Source of the DNA: Gallionellaceae bacterium
GTDB lineage: Bacteria > Pseudomonadota > Gammaproteobacteria > Burkholderiales > Gallionellaceae
Reading direction: 5' to 3'
Length of the DNA stretch: 44,751 nt
Assembly (NCBI GenBank): GCA_030834965.1
Contig: JAUQWW010000005.1
Span: 1 to 44,751, forward strand
Part shown: positions 14-10,076 of the stretch, piece by piece
Layout of the letters: the number at the start of each line of letters is the position of its first letter
Numbering within the stretch: the stretch's first letter is position 1
Notes under the pieces: generated by a model
What the model was told of the DNA's origin: nothing
What the model saw: the letters and a program-made list of their open reading frames with translations, nothing else
Databases searched by the model: none
Made by a program: the position numbers and the translations under genes

Positions 14-2851
<2,838 letters not shown>

Positions 2852-3289
2852 GGCAGCGGACTCCGGGGCAATCACGAGGAAACGTGATTATAGCGCGGCA
2901 AAACCAGCCTAAGTGCATCTCCTGACTTAATTAAATTACTTCGGCCGGGCTGCATTCTGGCATCGGATGCCTTACTTGCGTTGCCATGGCCGCCGTTGCT
3001 ATAGAGACCGTCCAGAAACCCTGTGTCCACTTTGTCGCCGTCAAGATCATCCTTCCTCTACGTATTGATTCAAGGTTGAAATATGTCCGCCAAGGCAGTG
3101 TGGTGCAGTAAGGTTGCAAAGAATTAACCTTGGTTACAGAGAGTTAACTATTGCATTCCCGCATCGAGTGGTTAAATGCTTTCCAGCAACTGCCTTACGG
3201 GATTTTTTTTACAGTCGAGGCTGGAACTAAGGTTTCCGTGATGCAAGTTGTATTTACTCAATCTGTTTAATCTTTAAAAGGAAATCATT
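2852..3289. other. Intergenic region between acnA and small secreted protein gene
   Basis: About 440 bases without a convincing gene. It must carry the promoters of acnA (minus) and of the secreted-protein gene (plus). A good Shine-Dalgarno (AAAGGAAA) lies at the right edge. A T-run (around 3206-3212) follows GC-poor sequence, but no stable hairpin precedes it. The short minus-strand frame at 2931-3119 has no recognisable features. Confidence 0.5.
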
Positions 3290-3769
3290 ATGCTTAAAAA
3301 CACAGAAGTTGCATTAGCTATCAGTCTTGGGTTGTTGGTGGGCAGTGTCGGTGTGGTACAAGCGTCTGGCTATGAAGGCTATGAAAGAAGCGGCTATGAA
3401 GGTCATGAGCGTCCCGGTGCGCTGCCCGGCATAGCCCGCGACGACGACGGTTCGGGCAGCTACTATTTAGAAACCAAGACGCAACTTTTTGAAAGCACTA
3501 ACATCCGCGAAGCTTCAGAATCTTCTGCAGCAAAGGCAAGCACTGAACTTTCGATCGAGGAGCGGTATTCCGGTACGTTGCCCAGCGTAACCCGCGATGA
3601 CTATGGTCTGGGCAGCTACTATGTCGAGAGCAAGCCGCAAGCTGCATGCACACAGTACGATCTGAATCCATTGAGCATTATTTACCCCGAGCAGCGTGAC
3701 AGCGTGAGCTTCTATCTGGTTCCGCAGTCCTCTCATGTCGTGTGCTTGAGAAGCACCGTTCGCGGATAA
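3290..3769 (+). CDS. Small secreted protein with repeated DDYGLGSYY motif, family unknown
   Basis: A 159-residue protein of unrecognised family. The N-terminus is a Sec signal peptide with likely cleavage after VQA (about residue 25), so the mature protein is periplasmic or secreted. A Tyr/Gly/Glu-rich stretch (GYEGYERSGYEGHE) follows. Two copies of a motif come next: LPGIARDDDGSGSYYLE (about 44-60) and LPSVTRDDYGLGSYYVE (about 100-116). The C-terminal part has two cysteines, in a DLNP context and in HVVCLR, suggesting one disulfide. The start has a good Shine-Dalgarno (AAAGGAA). The next gene on the same strand is a shorter paralog carrying one motif copy, so the pair comes from tandem duplication with an internal repeat in this member. 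Function cannot be assigned. Confidence 0.8.
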   Translation: MLKNTEVALAISLGLLVGSVGVVQASGYEGYERSGYEGHERPGALPGIARDDDGSGSYYLETKTQLFESTNIREASESSAAKASTELSIEERYSGTLPSVTRDDYGLGSYYVESKPQAACTQYDLNPLSIIYPEQRDSVSFYLVPQSSHVVCLRSTVRG

Positions 3770-3820
3770 ATGTGCACGCCTCATGGCGCATTGGCGTCTG
3801 AGCAGTATGAATGTGCATCA

Positions 3821-3843
3821 AATTTTTAAAAATTGTTTTTTTT
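3821..3843 (+). terminator. AT-only palindrome followed by T-run
   Basis: AATTTTTAAAAATT (3821-3834) is a perfect 14-base palindrome followed by G and eight T. It could act as a weak terminator between the two small secreted-protein genes. The stem is only A/T, so this is tentative. Confidence 0.3.
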
Positions 3844-3945
3844 AAGGCTCAGTTAATAACAGTTTGAAAAAATGCAATCGCTGGTTAGGTTAAGGTCCGG
3901 CTGAAAAATCTTAACGAGCTTGAATTCAAATAAAGGAGTCATATC

Positions 3946-4239
3946 ATGAAAGCACGTATTTTTGCAGGCATCATTACCGTAGCGCTGGCATCTTCGGCGG
4001 CACAGGCTGGTACTACGCTTTCGACAGAGGAAATGTATTCCACTACGCTGCCCAGCATCACTCGTGATGACTATGGTCTGGGAAGTTACTATGTAGAGAA
4101 AAGCTTGCAACCGGGATGTCGCCAGTTCGATCTTGACCCGCTGCGCGAGTATTTTCCAATAAAAGACGATGTCGTGAACAGCTACCTGGCTCCTCAGCCC
4201 ACGCATGTAGTATGTTTGCGAGAGGCTTCACGCGGTTGA
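3946..4239 (+). CDS. Small secreted protein, paralog of the preceding gene
   Basis: A 97-residue exported protein. The signal peptide is cleaved probably after AQA (about residue 21). The mature part, about 75 residues, aligns with the C-terminal half of the upstream protein: LS-EE-YS-TLPS then TRDDYGLGSYYVE, a cysteine before DLDP, and a terminal HVVCLRE. Strong conservation of the acidic/aromatic motif and of both cysteines points to a small folded periplasmic domain. A clear Shine-Dalgarno (AAAGGAG) supports the start. The gene is convergent with nirK, separated by the nirK terminator. No known family was recognised; a structural, metal-binding or envelope role is possible but unsupported. 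Confidence 0.8.
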   Translation: MKARIFAGIITVALASSAAQAGTTLSTEEMYSTTLPSITRDDYGLGSYYVEKSLQPGCRQFDLDPLREYFPIKDDVVNSYLAPQPTHVVCLREASRG

Positions 4240-4283
4240 TATGCACGCTTCGTGGCACATGTTTCCAGTGAAGTTAATGGCAC

Positions 4284-4318
4284 AAAAAAAAGGAGCAAGG
4301 TCCCTAAACCTTGCTCCT
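4284..4318 (-). terminator. Rho-independent terminator of nirK
   Basis: Perfect 11-bp inverted repeat AGGAGCAAGGT (4291-4301) and ACCTTGCTCCT (4308-4318) with a 6-base loop. Read on the minus strand it is followed by a run of T (the plus-strand A-run at 4284-4291). It lies about 50 bases downstream of the nirK stop codon. Confidence 0.92.
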
Positions 4319-4366
4319 CTGAGCTGCAATCCCTTCCGTGCGGGAAGGGTGAACAGACGCAGCTCT

Positions 4367-5380
4367 TTACTTCAGCTTGCCTTCACGGTAGATATCCGGA
4401 ACTTTGTCACCTTCAGCCAAGATGATGGCAACGTTACCCTTCATCAGGCGGCCCAGCGCATGGTCAACCAGGATGTACTTGGCAGGAACGCGCAGTTTCA
4501 TTTCCACCATGGTGGAGCCTCCAGGAGGCACAACAGTGGTTTGAATGTTATGGTGCGTGTGTTCGAGATCGCCTTCAGGGAAGACCTTGTCGAAGACCGT
4601 GCCAATTGCGTGGAAGGCAGAAGTCAGGTTAGGACCGCCAACACCAAAGAAGATGCGGACAGTTTCGCCAACTTTGGCCTTCATTGGGTTGGCCGCCAAT
4701 GCAGCTGCGGAACCGTTCATGACCACGTGCGTGGGATCCTCGGCCAGCATACGCTCCATGTCGAACTCTTTATGATTGCCGGAGCCCGTTGCATAGATGT
4801 CGCCTTGCATCACGTAGAACTCGCGATCAACTTTCGGCAAACCGCCTGCTGGTTCGATCAGGATCAAGCCATACATGCCGCTGGAAATATGCTGCGGAAT
4901 GACGGGAGTTGCGCAGTGGTAAACATACAGACCAGGGTTCATGGCCTTGAAAACGAACGATTTTGATTCGCCAGGAGGAGTTACAGTTGCTTCTGCGCCA
5001 CCACCTTGACCCCATACTGCGTGCAAGTCAACGTTATGGATCATTGCACTGTTGGATTTATTCGAATGGGTAATCTCTATAGTGTCGCCAACGCGGGCGC
5101 GCAGCATTGGGCCCGGCACCTTGCCGTTGTATGTCCAGTAGGTATAAGTCGTGCCGGCCTTGGCATCCAGAACGCCTTTCAATTCCTCTGCTACCAGATG
5201 AAATTTGAGAGTCGTCGGTCCACGCTTACCTACAGGCGTCCCAACAGCAGTCGGGTCCTGAACGATATTCGCTGCTTCTTCTGCCTGCGCCAGCGAGGCT
5301 GCTGGCAGCAAGGCGGCAGCCAGCAGACCCATTGCCACCTGCTTGGTCAGCATGCGAGTTATTGTATTTACTATACTCAT
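4367..5380 (-). CDS. nirK: Copper-containing nitrite reductase
   Basis: Periplasmic enzyme that reduces nitrite to nitric oxide. The 337-residue precursor has a Sec signal peptide (cleavage near SLAQA-EE) and two cupredoxin domains. Type 1 copper ligands: His115, Cys156, His164 and Met169. Type 2 ligands: His120, His155 and His307. The catalytic pair is Asp118 and His257, by analogy with characterised NirK. The ATG at 5380 has a strong Shine-Dalgarno (AAGGAG) and places the signal peptide at the N-terminus; a 36-residue upstream extension of the open frame has neither. No other denitrification gene is in the window, so the role may be partial denitrification, nitrite detoxification or NO production. 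Upstream DNA contains an 18-base tandem repeat and a distant FNR-like box. Confidence 0.95.
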   Translation of the reverse strand: MSIVNTITRMLTKQVAMGLLAAALLPAASLAQAEEAANIVQDPTAVGTPVGKRGPTTLKFHLVAEELKGVLDAKAGTTYTYWTYNGKVPGPMLRARVGDTIEITHSNKSNSAMIHNVDLHAVWGQGGGAEATVTPPGESKSFVFKAMNPGLYVYHCATPVIPQHISSGMYGLILIEPAGGLPKVDREFYVMQGDIYATGSGNHKEFDMERMLAEDPTHVVMNGSAAALAANPMKAKVGETVRIFFGVGGPNLTSAFHAIGTVFDKVFPEGDLEHTHHNIQTTVVPPGGSTMVEMKLRVPAKYILVDHALGRLMKGNVAIILAEGDKVPDIYREGKLK

Positions 5381-5498
5381 CTTGATTCTCCTTACCTTAG
5401 TTTGCGAGTTATTGAAAACAAAATTCATGTTGCAAGGCATCTGTTGCGTCACCAACAGGCGAGCCTGCGCATGTGCTACAAAAAACACTGAAACAAAC

Positions 5499-5534
5499 GC
5501 TAAACACTACGGATACTACAAGCACTACGGATAC
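5499..5534 (-). repeat. Two tandem 18-base units upstream of nirK
   Basis: On the minus strand GTATCCGTAGTG occurs twice at an exact 18-base period (plus coordinates 5523-5534 and 5505-5516). The copies lie about 125-155 bases before the nirK start codon, so they could be an operator. Chance duplication is also possible. Confidence 0.55.
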
Positions 5535-5596
5535 AACAACAAATCAATGACGGGCTGACTGGCAAAATATGTATGTTGCTAGTTATTTTTTTCCGC

Positions 5597-5621
5597 TGGA
5601 ATGGTGACTACTTCCATTCCA
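5597..5621. repeat. Inverted repeat TGGAATGG/CCATTCCA
   Basis: A perfect 8-bp inverted repeat with a 9-base spacer, in the nirK upstream region. A T-run lies on its left on the plus strand, the wrong side for a plus-strand terminator, and neither orientation makes a standard terminator. It may be a protein-binding site. Confidence 0.4.
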
Positions 5622-5712
5622 CGTAGTATTGCTTCGCCCATCGTTTAATGCCAAAACTTTTTAAACATGTATTGAACAAGCTTAATTCTGGTTGCCCAAC
5701 TGCAAAATTTCT

Positions 5713-5726
5713 TTGACTTGTATCAA
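5713..5726 (-). promoter_or_regulatory. FNR-type box, probable nirK upstream activator site
   Basis: TTGACttgtATCAA matches the FNR/ANR/DNR consensus TTGATnnnnATCAA at 9 of 10 positions. If its centre is at -41.5 for minus-strand transcription, the predicted -10 falls exactly on CAGAAT (5685-5690, minus), a 4/6 match. This would give a leader of about 300 bases before nirK. It could instead serve the plus-strand lipoprotein gene. Confidence 0.45.
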
Positions 5727-5812
5727 CCTTGATGAAGATAAGGGTACTTAAGCTTGCTCAACTTGAAGCTTACCGGAAATTCGCTGATAATTCCAACAAG
5801 CACGGCGTTCCA

Positions 5813-6843: not shown

Positions 6844-6920
<77 letters not shown>

Positions 6921-6922
6921 AA

Positions 6923-7891
6923 TCAAAATTGCCGAGTAGCGGCAAAGTCTGCCAATTGTAACAGGGATTGTTTGTAATTCGTATCGGGCAATACCGCCAG
7001 AGCTTCACACGCGGCATCCGCCTCGCGTTGAGCTTGCTGCCGGGCGTACGTCAGCGCCCCGGTCTGATTGATCACCTGCAACACGTCTGCAAAACGCACG
7101 ATGTCGCCCTGCTCGATTGCCTGGCGCACGATGGCAACCTGGCTTGCATCGCCATGCTGCATTGCATAAATCAGCGGCAGCGTCGGCTTGCCTTCGGCCA
7201 GATCGTCCCCAAGGTTCTTGCCAGTTTCCTGCTCGTCGCCGGAATAATCCAGCACATCGTCCACCAGCTGGAAGGCTGTCCCGAGATGCATGCCGTATTT
7301 TGCAGCAGCCTGCTCTTCGGCAGCATTTGCCCGCGCCAGAATCGCCCCCAAGCGCATGGCAGCCTCGAACAGTTTTGCAGTCTTGCAGTGAATCACATGC
7401 AAATAACTGGCTACATCCACATCCGCGTTATGGCAGCTCAATAATTGCAGCACCTCACCTTCGGCAATGGTGTTGGTCGCGTCAGCCAGCGTCTGCATCA
7501 CGCGCATGTCGTTCACTTCCACCATCATCTGGAAGGCACGCGAATACAGAAAGTCGCCAACCAGCACGCTGGCGGCATTGCCGAACAATGCGTTGGCAGT
7601 GGCATGTCCCCGGCGCAGCTCCGACTCATCCACCACATCGTCATGCAACAGCGTAGCGGTATGTATGAATTCAACCACTGCCGCCAGGTCGTGATGATGC
7701 GCCCCTTGATAAGCAAAGGCCTTGGCGGAGAGAATCACCAATGCCGGGCGCAAGCGCTTGCCGCCGTTATTGATGATGTACTCGGCCACCTGGCTGACCA
7801 GCGCCACTTCAGAGTGCAGGCGCGCCCGTATCACACCATCTACGGCGGACATATCCGGAACAAGCAATTCTCTTATGGCTTCGAACGACAC
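6923..7891 (-). CDS. ispB: Octaprenyl (polyprenyl) diphosphate synthase
   Basis: Trans-prenyltransferase that extends farnesyl diphosphate with isopentenyl units to make the ubiquinone side chain. It shows GGKRLRP near residue 45, a first aspartate-rich motif (LLHDDVVDE, near 82-90), the GNAASVLVGDFLYSRAFQ segment, and a second aspartate motif (QLVDDVLDYSGD). The frame opens at a TTG at 7903. The GTG at 7891 is preferred: it has GGGA about 6 bases upstream and gives 322 residues, the usual IspB length. tRNA-Pro lies 2 bases downstream on the same strand. The rplU/rpmA genes often found near ispB are not adjacent. Confidence 0.92.
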   Translation of the reverse strand: MSFEAIRELLVPDMSAVDGVIRARLHSEVALVSQVAEYIINNGGKRLRPALVILSAKAFAYQGAHHHDLAAVVEFIHTATLLHDDVVDESELRRGHATANALFGNAASVLVGDFLYSRAFQMMVEVNDMRVMQTLADATNTIAEGEVLQLLSCHNADVDVASYLHVIHCKTAKLFEAAMRLGAILARANAAEEQAAAKYGMHLGTAFQLVDDVLDYSGDEQETGKNLGDDLAEGKPTLPLIYAMQHGDASQVAIVRQAIEQGDIVRFADVLQVINQTGALTYARQQAQREADAACEALAVLPDTNYKQSLLQLADFAATRQF

Positions 7892-8003
7892 GACAAATCC
7901 CAAAAAGGCGGCGATGTTATGGAGGATGCAGGCACGGTGTCAAGCAGGCGGTAATTTAAGGTAGCATTGTCGCATAAATATTTCCTGCTTAAAGTGCTAC
8001 GCC

Positions 8004-10076
8004 ATGAATAAAAAGTTTCTCAGTGTCTTTGTCTGGATTGCCATTGCTTTGCTCGGTGCCGCTGCGCTGGGAGGCATCGCGCTGAACCGCGGCGAATCGA
8101 TCAACGCAATGTGGCTCATCACCGCCGCGCTGTGCGTCTATGCGATTGCCTACCGCTTCTATGCCGCCTGGATCGCAAGCAAGGTGCTGCTGGTCGACCC
8201 TACGCGCGCCACACCCGCAGAACGCCTGGACAACGGCCGTGATTATGTTCCGAGCAACCGCTGGATTGTATTCGGCCACCATTTTGCCGCCATCGCCGGG
8301 CCAGGGCCGCTGGTCGGACCGACACTCGCTGCGCAGTTCGGCTATTTGCCGGGAACGCTGTGGATACTGATAGGCGCCGTGCTGGGCGGCTGCGTACAGG
8401 ATATGGTCACACTGTTCTTTTCCACGCGGCGCAATGGAAAAAGCTTGGGTCAAATGGCGCGCGACGAGCTGGGCGCCATTGGCGGTATCGCCGCGCTGAT
8501 CGCCACGCTGTTCATCATGATTATCCTCATCGCAGTGCTCGGACTGGTAGTGGTGAATGCCATGAAGCACAGCCCGTGGGCCACCTCCACAGTGGCCGCA
8601 ACCATACCGATCGCGATGCTGGTCGGCCTCTACATGCGCAGCATCCGGCCCGGGCGCGTGCTGGAAGGCTCGCTGCTCGGCGTGGTGCTTTTGCTGCTGG
8701 CGGTCGCGGGCGGAGGCTGGATCGATCATCAGCCAGTCTTGCGCGAACTGTTTAACCATCCCGGCCTGCCGCTGGCCTGGGCGGTGATCGGCTATGGTTT
8801 CGCCGCCGCAATCTTGCCGGTATGGCTACTGCTCGCGCCGCGCGACTACCTGTCCACGTACATTAAGCTGGGCACGGTCATCCTGCTTGCGCTGGCCATC
8901 ATCTGGCTGCAACCGATGATCAAGATGCCCGCGCTGACGCAGTTCATCGACGGCACCGGCCCGATCTTCGGCGGCAAGTTGTTTCCCTTCGTGTTCATCA
9001 CCATCGCCTGCGGCGCCATTTCCGGCTTCCACGCACTGATCGCCTCCGGCACCACGCCCAAGCTGCTCAGCAACGAACGCGACATTCGCATGATCGGCTA
9101 CGGCGGCATGGCGTTGGAGTCGTTCGTCGCGATCATGGCCATGATCGCCGCCACCGTGCTCGATCCCGGAATATTCTTTGCAATCAACTCTCCTGCCGGA
9201 GTCGTCGGCAAGGAGGCGGCCGCAGCCGTCGCCAAGATTTCCTCGTGGGGCTTTCCGGTCACGGTCGAGCAAATGGCCCTGCTGGCGCAGCAGATGGGCG
9301 AGACCACGCTGTTCGCACGCACCGGCGGCGCGCCTTCGCTGGCGGTGGGGATGGCCAGCATACTGGGCAGTGCGTTTGGCGAGGGTATGCTCGCGCTGTG
9401 GTATCACTTCGCCATCATGTTCGAGGCCATCTTCATCCTTACCACGCTGGATGCAGGCACGCGCGTCGGACGCTTCATGCTGCAGGACATCCTCGGGAAC
9501 ATCTGGCCGAAGCTGGGCGAAACCTCGTGGTATCCCTCGGTGCTGCTTTCCAGCGCCATCGTCGTCGCGGCGTGGGGCTACTTCCTGTATATCGGCGTGA
9601 TCGATCCCAACGGCGGCGTCAACATCCTGTGGCCGCTGTTCGGCATTTCCAATCAGATACTCGCCGCTATCGCGCTATGCGTGGCCACCGGCATCCTGGT
9701 CAAATGCGGCAAGCTGAGACATGCCTGGATCACCGCTCTGCCGCTTGCCTGGCTGGTCATCATCACCAGCAGCGCGGTGTGGGAAAAGATCACCAGCCCC
9801 GATGTGCGTATCGGTTTTCTTGCCGCTGCCAACGACCTCGCCAGCAAACTCGCGGCAGGCACGCTGCCGCCGGAAAAGGCCGCGGTCGCACCGACGCTGA
9901 TATTCAACCAGCGCCTCGATGCGCTGCTGGCCTTATTTTTCATCTGCCTGTTGTGGCTGATCGTGCTTGATATGCTGCGTGTCTGCGCGCGCCACCTCAA
10001 TGGCAAGCCCGTTCCGCCACTTTCCGAAGTGCCGCATCAGGTCACAAGACTGGAGGAAGCATGGCAAAGAGATTGA
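8004..10076 (+). CDS. cstA: CstA/BtsT-family carbon starvation transporter
   Basis: A 690-residue polytopic inner-membrane protein of the CstA family, whose studied members import pyruvate or peptides under carbon limitation. The family segments are clear: NRWIVFGHHFAAIAGPGPLVGP (near 82-103), LGGCVQDMVTLFFSTRRNGKSLGQ, ITIACGAISGFHALIASGTTPK, and TTLDAGTRVGRFMLQD. Many hydrophobic helices span the protein, starting with one at residues 5-27. The length matches CstA and BtsT. It overlaps the start of the small YbdD gene by 16 bases, which supports the assignment, because cstA and ybdD/yjiX are habitual partners. The exact substrate cannot be read from sequence. Confidence 0.93.
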   Translation: MNKKFLSVFVWIAIALLGAAALGGIALNRGESINAMWLITAALCVYAIAYRFYAAWIASKVLLVDPTRATPAERLDNGRDYVPSNRWIVFGHHFAAIAGPGPLVGPTLAAQFGYLPGTLWILIGAVLGGCVQDMVTLFFSTRRNGKSLGQMARDELGAIGGIAALIATLFIMIILIAVLGLVVVNAMKHSPWATSTVAATIPIAMLVGLYMRSIRPGRVLEGSLLGVVLLLLAVAGGGWIDHQPVLRELFNHPGLPLAWAVIGYGFAAAILPVWLLLAPRDYLSTYIKLGTVILLALAIIWLQPMIKMPALTQFIDGTGPIFGGKLFPFVFITIACGAISGFHALIASGTTPKLLSNERDIRMIGYGGMALESFVAIMAMIAATVLDPGIFFAINSPAGVVGKEAAAAVAKISSWGFPVTVEQMALLAQQMGETTLFARTGGAPSLAVGMASILGSAFGEGMLALWYHFAIMFEAIFILTTLDAGTRVGRFMLQDILGNIWPKLGETSWYPSVLLSSAIVVAAWGYFLYIGVIDPNGGVNILWPLFGISNQILAAIALCVATGILVKCGKLRHAWITALPLAWLVIITSSAVWEKITSPDVRIGFLAAANDLASKLAAGTLPPEKAAVAPTLIFNQRLDALLALFFICLLWLIVLDMLRVCARHLNGKPVPPLSEVPHQVTRLEEAWQRD

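Follow-up and report, generated by a model that had tools for sequence, protein, structure and literature searches.

Pilin genes driven by PilR/PilS place a surface protein under sigma-54 control, and small exported proteins of the DUF4148 type are short, with a signal peptide similar in style to that of the family described here. The Gallionellaceae, the source of this DNA, are mostly known as iron oxidisers. They include nitrite oxidisers as well as iron oxidisers (PMC10734462). PEP-CTERM genes were described by Haft et al. as carrying a TTTACA-bearing enhancer together with a sigma-54 site (PMC1569441), and in Aquincola the start of pepA has been mapped, with TGGCAC at -24 and CTGCTT at -12 (PMC9850573). 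Here we describe a pair of genes for small exported proteins in a Gallionellaceae contig, and the family, promoter, and candidate activator to which they lead.

Structure of the W1/W2 locus

The window is the whole stretch of DNA that was analysed, 44,751 nucleotides of contig JAUQWW010000005.1 (C98 below). Two adjacent genes, W1 and W2, sit in it between acnA and a copper nitrite reductase gene:

17-2875, minus strand: flanking aconitate hydratase gene, AcnA
3072-3357, plus strand: promoter and leader region of W1, 81% identical to contig C96 21704-21990
3124-3148, plus strand: class-2 box of W1, TTAACCTTGGTTACAGAGAGTTAAC, of a pattern taken from three places
3276-3283, plus strand: ribosome-binding site of W1, AAAAGGAA, read directly
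3290-3769, plus strand: W1, a chimeric exported protein of 159 aa (leader in common with another locus, followed by a partial copy of the motif and by a family copy)
3290-3364, plus strand: signal peptide of W1, different from the family's own, cleavage judged by eye
3368-3415, plus strand: Tyr-rich octapeptide repeat GYEGYERS/GYEGHERP, read directly
3414-3484, plus strand: first motif copy in W1, LPGIARDDDGSGSYYLE, with 79% DNA identity to 3570-3640
3473-3538, plus strand: what appears to be the decayed signal peptide, now internal, of an ordinary copy of the family (TKTQLFESTNIREASESSAAKA compared with MKTRIFAGIIVAAVLASSAAQA)
3570-3640, plus strand: second (ordinary) motif copy in W1, LPSVTRDDYGLGSYYVE
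3932-3938, plus strand: ribosome-binding site of W2, AAAGGAG, read directly
3946-4239, plus strand: W2, an exported protein of 97 aa, ordinary member of the family with two Cys
4370-5488, minus strand: flanking copper-containing nitrite reductase gene, nirK (313.8 bits, cut-off 296.3)

Both proteins start with a Sec-type signal peptide (judged by eye) and have LPS[VI]TRDDYGLGSYYVE, DL[ND]PL, HVVCLR, and two cysteines in common; W2 as query matches the core of W1 with an E value of 7.3e-29 and 60% identity over query residues 10-97. A sequence-only reading had described two neighbouring exported proteins with these motifs, a second motif copy within W1, and a Tyr-rich repeat. Both open frames and the motifs are present, the two copies in W1 align over 71 bp, and the repeat reads as listed above. 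That reading also called both ribosome sites strong, which suits AAAGGAG of W2 and is less apt for AAAAGGAA of W1.

To judge from the comparison of loci, W1 is a chimera whose promoter and leader match those of another locus, on C96, where the frame similar to the W1 leader runs into a stop after 27 codons (by eye). In the alignment, residues 62-83 of W1 look like the decayed signal peptide of an ordinary family copy. A parallel duplication is found in two copies of a relative, G033, where an inner SAAQAG resembles the last residues of a signal peptide.

Copies, selection, and distribution of the family

Searching the 3.07 Mb genome of the window with W2 returned nine stretches, which are eight copies plus the extra motif in W1. 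The eight copies are arranged as four tandem pairs, one each on C98 (the window), C5, C73, and C96, and the neighbouring genes differ among the four loci. The C73 pair lies between phoB and phoR (L040, region 7071 to 8552), both of which score above their NCBIfam (TIGRFAM-type) cut-offs.

Among these copies, with W1 taken from residue 62 on, differences per codon amount to 0.37 at position 3 versus 0.21 and 0.17 at the other positions, and pairwise dN/dS lies between 0.04 and 0.42. Because this holds for all 28 pairs, the sense frame is, on codon-level evidence, the selected coding frame and under purifying selection, and the earlier suggestion that the genes are real is borne out. The frame is kept in relatives as well as in the own copies. 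Antisense coding was considered and rejected: long antisense frames overlap the copies, yet the most open one is interrupted by a stop in five of the eight stretches, and its position 1 coincides with sense position 3, the most variable.

An 11-member profile found the family in 8 of 158 Gallionellaceae genomes, the own genome included (E <= 0.05). With a profile of 15 members, the own genome was the sole carrier among 399 sampled from the order, a search of limited reach, with no more than 12 first-look candidates scored in each genome and with the other known carriers absent from the sample. Named genome contigs, when scanned, yielded three loci: a Nitrosomonadales MAG has two and Ca. Ferrigenium bremense one. 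A single-protein search returned a row at E <= 1 for 44 of 199 genomes, treated as chance except for the own genome, G033, G073, and G095. Within the genomes searched, the family appears to be fast-changing and has been found so far in Gallionellaceae only. With hhalign, the mature parts give 21% for own versus G033, 94.7% for G033 versus genus g12, and 7.5% for own versus g12, and the same comparisons reach 98-99% when signal peptides are kept; the mature parts therefore seem to diverge beyond the own genus.

Invariant in the 15-member alignment are Y-S after the signal peptide and both cysteines, the second at or near the C-terminus. All 15 short members have a mature pI of 4.5-5.6 and exactly two Cys, consistent with one probable disulfide. 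In G033, a few kb from a member with two motifs, there is a highly repetitive ORF (LTGNISPDLTGSVSGLTGRIS..., L044:6910-7875, minus strand).

Searches for described relatives

The sequence-only reading recognised no family, and none of the libraries searched (Pfam, NCBIfam, PHROGs, PDB, plasmids, and viral contigs) held a described family that matches this tandem set of small secreted proteins. Pfam and NCBIfam returned no family for W1 or W2 at a maximum E of 10, a range in which the HMMER filters drop most matches above about 0.1. The PDB search gave one chance-level row (an antibody chain, E 0.36) and PHROGs one weak row for W1 (E 0.06). Plasmids searched with W2 gave no match, and of 69 stretches in viral contigs that fit a pattern, none was confirmed as a relative. 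A phage or plasmid origin was rejected on these results. The AlphaFold model, built on a five-row alignment, was uninformative (mean pLDDT 39.7). We found no paper on the W1/W2 family in one library of open-access literature.

An RNA-family search of nine sources matched only a tRNA gene in the window (6847-6920, minus strand, 63.1 bits) and a c-di-GMP-I riboswitch on own contig C96 (L039:590-672, minus strand, 56.3 bits, gathering score 35), which precedes an ORF beginning MEVIMHAIKPNTIVIL.

A predicted sigma-54 promoter and an upstream palindrome

The pairs on C5, C73, and C96 have TGGCACGGTTAGTGCTTAT upstream, a -24/-12 site (GG-N10-GC) 121-125 bases before the start, and a comparable site stands before members of the family in G033 (C48 and C1) and in five g12 genomes. 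A palindrome, GTTNA-N2-3-TGRAC, lies 65-104 bases further upstream. Promoter (GG-N10-GC, TGGCAC...TGC) and palindrome are found at three of the four own pairs and at seven of nine tested loci of relatives. Across the upstream regions of this family (family 1), the sigma-54 site occurs in 10 of 14 (0.76 expected from mononucleotide shuffles) and the palindrome, a pattern derived from the very sequences scored, also in 10 of 14 (0.07 expected); in a second family introduced below (family 2), both the site (0.52 expected) and the palindrome (0.02 expected) occur in seven of eight regions. These counts exclude the second copies C5b, C96b, and C73b, as well as G073 C14, where the copy is spread across two frames; G018 C54, at a contig edge; own C87, which matches family 2 in part only; and G098 C92, with promoter and part of the gene the same as in C44. 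Exact matches to the 19-mer TGGCACGGTWANTGCTTAT number 12, spread over 9 of 158 genomes (one for the reversed control), and all 12 lie upstream of exported genes, seven of family 1 and five of family 2.

Neither the sigma-54 site nor the palindrome was found before W1 or W2 (176 bases examined for W2), G033 C68 and C60, or the own C96 family-2 gene. W1 has a class-2 box, a pattern with three matches genome-wide at up to three mismatches, which are its source boxes only (control 0). One is that of W1; the other two, both on C96, precede the truncated leader and two-component genes and the family-2 gene, respectively. The C96 two-component proteins are nearest to heavy-metal regulators, with scores below the cut-offs. 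By these sequence comparisons the window pair is atypical and off the proposed sigma-54 switch, the W1 promoter is common to the two-component locus, and the C96 two-component system may drive W1.

A PAS-domain activator next to the promoter

Divergent from the C5 pair and adjoining it is a gene for an activator with PAS, Sigma54_activat (1.2e-72), and HTH_8 (Fis-type) domains. The same divergent arrangement with an exported gene recurs in other genomes at five family-1 and six family-2 loci. Its PAS domain has the cysteine spacing C-x8-C-x3-C-x5-C and as a query finds matches in 24 of 158 genomes at E <= 1e-8; 27 of 29 fit the PAS pattern, which itself required four Cys and is no independent count. 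GAFTGA is present in 20 of 27 activator rows; of the seven that lack it, six have no AAA+ part and one is the own C49 copy. The activator has the features of a bEBP, a Sigma54_activat domain with GAFTGA and a Fis-type HTH. With none of the 25 NCBIfam models listed, the best of which include NorR and NifA, does it reach the curated cut-off, and against the PrsR model TIGR02915 it scores 316.6 bits (cut-off 502.6) over profile positions 133-444 only, outside the PrsR family as curated.

No activator is adjacent to the pairs on C73 and C96. None was detected in G033, a 73% complete genome, though members sit behind the promoter there, and G013, G018, G021, and G219 have the activator with no exported gene found beside it. 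In G230, G116, G091, and G231 (L081, L085, L086, and L089), a variant sigma-54-like site, TTGGCATGGTTGTTGC, lies upstream of the activator; no exported ORF is evident after it, nor is there an Rfam match at gathering scores. These loci could hold a decayed payload or a sigma-54-dependent non-coding RNA.

Other genes carry related domains. On own contig C49 (L122:1966-3330, minus strand, and 4087-5805, plus strand), a second PAS activator has GAFSGA for GAFTGA and lies in the neighbourhood of a gene for a PEP-CTERM protein. Open frames of 123-154 aa that lack the AAA+ part (L095, L096, and L101-L104) also carry the four-Cys PAS domain, and four of these are near an ORF resembling an FAD-dependent oxidoreductase (by eye).

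Different payloads behind one proposed switch

The proteins of family 2 are acidic secreted repeat proteins with ASFERDLYR and ADPL, five of the six without Cys, which is also lacking in the two two-motif copies of G033. Within genus g12, the gene divergent from the activator belongs to family 1 in G073, G095, G232, G212, and G061 and to family 2 in G107, G211, G089, G208, and G217; G098 (genus g2) also has family 2. Across the 25 g12 pairs that span the two families, DNA identity is 0.81 for the activator gene (shuffled 0.55) and 0.65 for the activator-to-promoter stretch (shuffled 0.53), and falls to 0.59 for the leader and 0.61 for the CDS (shuffled 0.57 for each). Within families, leaders are 0.73-0.75 and CDSs 0.68-0.78 identical. 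Cross-family identity of the promoter is 0.86, but the promoter was chosen by pattern and this value proves little. The gene beyond the payload, a putative transport gene, is 82-87% identical to that of G073 at the three family-2 loci that reach it, and is by this measure orthologous at all four. Sequence comparison within this one genus thus finds an orthologous activator with a different protein behind its promoter.

In the activator tree, which left out eight of 29 loci (L095, L096, L098, L099, and L101-L104), the five family-1 genomes group with G217, a family-2 genome, with support of 96/94, among family-2 carriers and with no resolution inside the group. From this placement we infer that family 2 was probably replaced by family 1 in that clade. 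The two families may be remote relatives: the best cross-family BLASTP E value is 0.013, and hhalign gives 38% with signal peptides and 0.7% for the own mature parts.

In several genomes (L069, L070, L071, L072, L073, L044, and L157), the payload gene, whether of family 1 or family 2, is followed by one for an exported His-rich protein with LTL[DN]xG[KR]KxxTD; the one such protein tested scored above the cut-off of no Pfam model.

PEP-CTERM genes of the same genome

The own genome has PrsR (760.5 bits, cut-off 502.6) and 16 PEP-CTERM (TIGR02595) matches; none of the eight family copies is among these, and their C-termini have no PEP tail. Upstream regions were compared for 12 of the 16 PEP-CTERM loci (L145, L148, L152, and L154 were left out; one of two C58 genes, L144, was counted). 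A PrsR-like box, TGTC[GA]G-N2-7-TTTAC, again a pattern derived from the sequences scored, was found in 6 of these 12 regions, in 0 of 14 regions of family 1, and in 0 of 8 of family 2. The GTTNA-N2-3-TGRAC palindrome has the reverse distribution, 0 of 12 PEP-CTERM regions versus 17 of 22 of families 1 and 2 together. It therefore seems that two sigma-54 export regulons, distinct in their enhancers, operate in one genome.

Discussion

Our main reading, to which we give a probability of roughly 0.4, is that these are acidic Sec-exported proteins of the envelope or matrix, made on a redox- or metal-type signal via sigma-54. An envelope or extracellular-matrix role is suggested by analogy with the PEP-CTERM proteins, which are also driven by sigma-54. 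The one-component activator, with its four-Cys PAS, AAA+ sigma-54 domain, and Fis-type HTH, would bind the GTTNA-N2-3-TGRAC palindromes and, once bound, would fire the TGGCACGGTTANTGCTTAT-type promoter, upon which the exported protein would be made. Because the PAS domain has four cysteines, the activator may sense redox state, oxygen, NO, or a metal. In the sister species the same switch would lead to an acidic repeat protein that has no confident alignment with family 1, so that the conserved need would be the export of some acidic protein under that condition, with no single fold. The window pair would have left the sigma-54 switch, with W1 on a promoter shared with the locus that encodes a two-component system.

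We also propose, as tentatively as the main reading itself, that the locus is a regulatory socket: a redox- or metal-sensing sigma-54 switch would be fixed at one chromosomal position, its non-homologous acidic payload (perhaps a non-coding transcript in one clade) would be swapped, and extra copies elsewhere would be rewired to a second sensor.

The same sensors would also fit a different product. The proteins could work in the periplasm as factors that handle metals or redox chemistry (iron, copper, or nitric oxide), their expression being switched on once stress is sensed by the Cys-PAS activator or by the two-component system of C96. The four cysteines of the PAS domain, the sub-threshold likeness of the activator to NorR and NifA and of the C96 two-component pair to heavy-metal regulators, the nirK neighbour in the window, and the His-rich exported protein at five g12 family-1 loci all point this way. 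The products themselves are less suited to such a task, having just two Cys in the short members and none in most family-2 proteins or the two-motif copies of G033, no metal-site motif was seen by eye, and the neighbours of the four own loci differ; we regard this reading as unlikely, though worth keeping in view. Membership of the PEP-CTERM/PrsR regulon, by proteins that lack the sorting tail, would account for a sigma-54 promoter like that reported for pepA (TGGCAC, CTGCTT; PMC9850573) in a genome with PrsR and PEP-CTERM genes. The opposite distributions of the PrsR-like box and the palindrome, together with the missing tail, make it very improbable.

Two further explanations were considered. 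If the proteins were antagonistic, or partners in a conflict, diversification through that conflict could have put different payloads behind one switch and produced the tandem duplications and internal repeats. Against this, dN/dS is purifying and not diversifying, and no immunity or export gene was seen by eye among the neighbours, which leaves the idea improbable. Tandem pairs that move as selfish or mobile cassettes with their own promoter would explain four pairs with different neighbours, among them one lodged between phoB and phoR. We think this somewhat less probable still: no transposase was recognised among the ORFs read near the pairs, plasmids and viral contigs gave no match, and the activator locus is syntenic in genus g12 where compared.

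An orphan family thus gains a regulatory context that can be tested. The results suggest that one genome has, next to PEP-CTERM, another sigma-54 export regulon that uses a separate enhancer code, and they offer a natural example of a regulator and a promoter that seem to persist longer than the protein under their control. If the socket reading is true, it would describe a modular system of swappable surface proteins in the Gallionellaceae. Because little is, to our knowledge, known about the surface proteins of this family, a defined switch with a list of targets would be a useful handle.

Comparison with known systems

Pilins driven by PilR/PilS differ from the W1/W2 family, in which no prepilin features were seen by eye, and DUF4148-type proteins differ in that no Pfam match is listed for W1 or W2 up to E 10. 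NtrC-family sigma-54 activators (the NorR, NifA, and AtoC models) have in common with the activator described here the AAA+ sigma-54 domain with GAFTGA and the Fis-type HTH; it differs from them by its N-terminal four-Cys PAS domain and by scores below the cut-offs listed. PEP-CTERM genes under PrsK/PrsR and sigma-54 likewise encode exported proteins and have a -24/-12 promoter, an upstream enhancer, and a dedicated activator (PMC1569441 and PMC9850573), and both systems have several genes per genome. Compared with PEP-CTERM, the W1/W2 family has short proteins with two Cys and no C-terminal PEP tail, another putative enhancer, and a one-component PAS activator in place of a response regulator.
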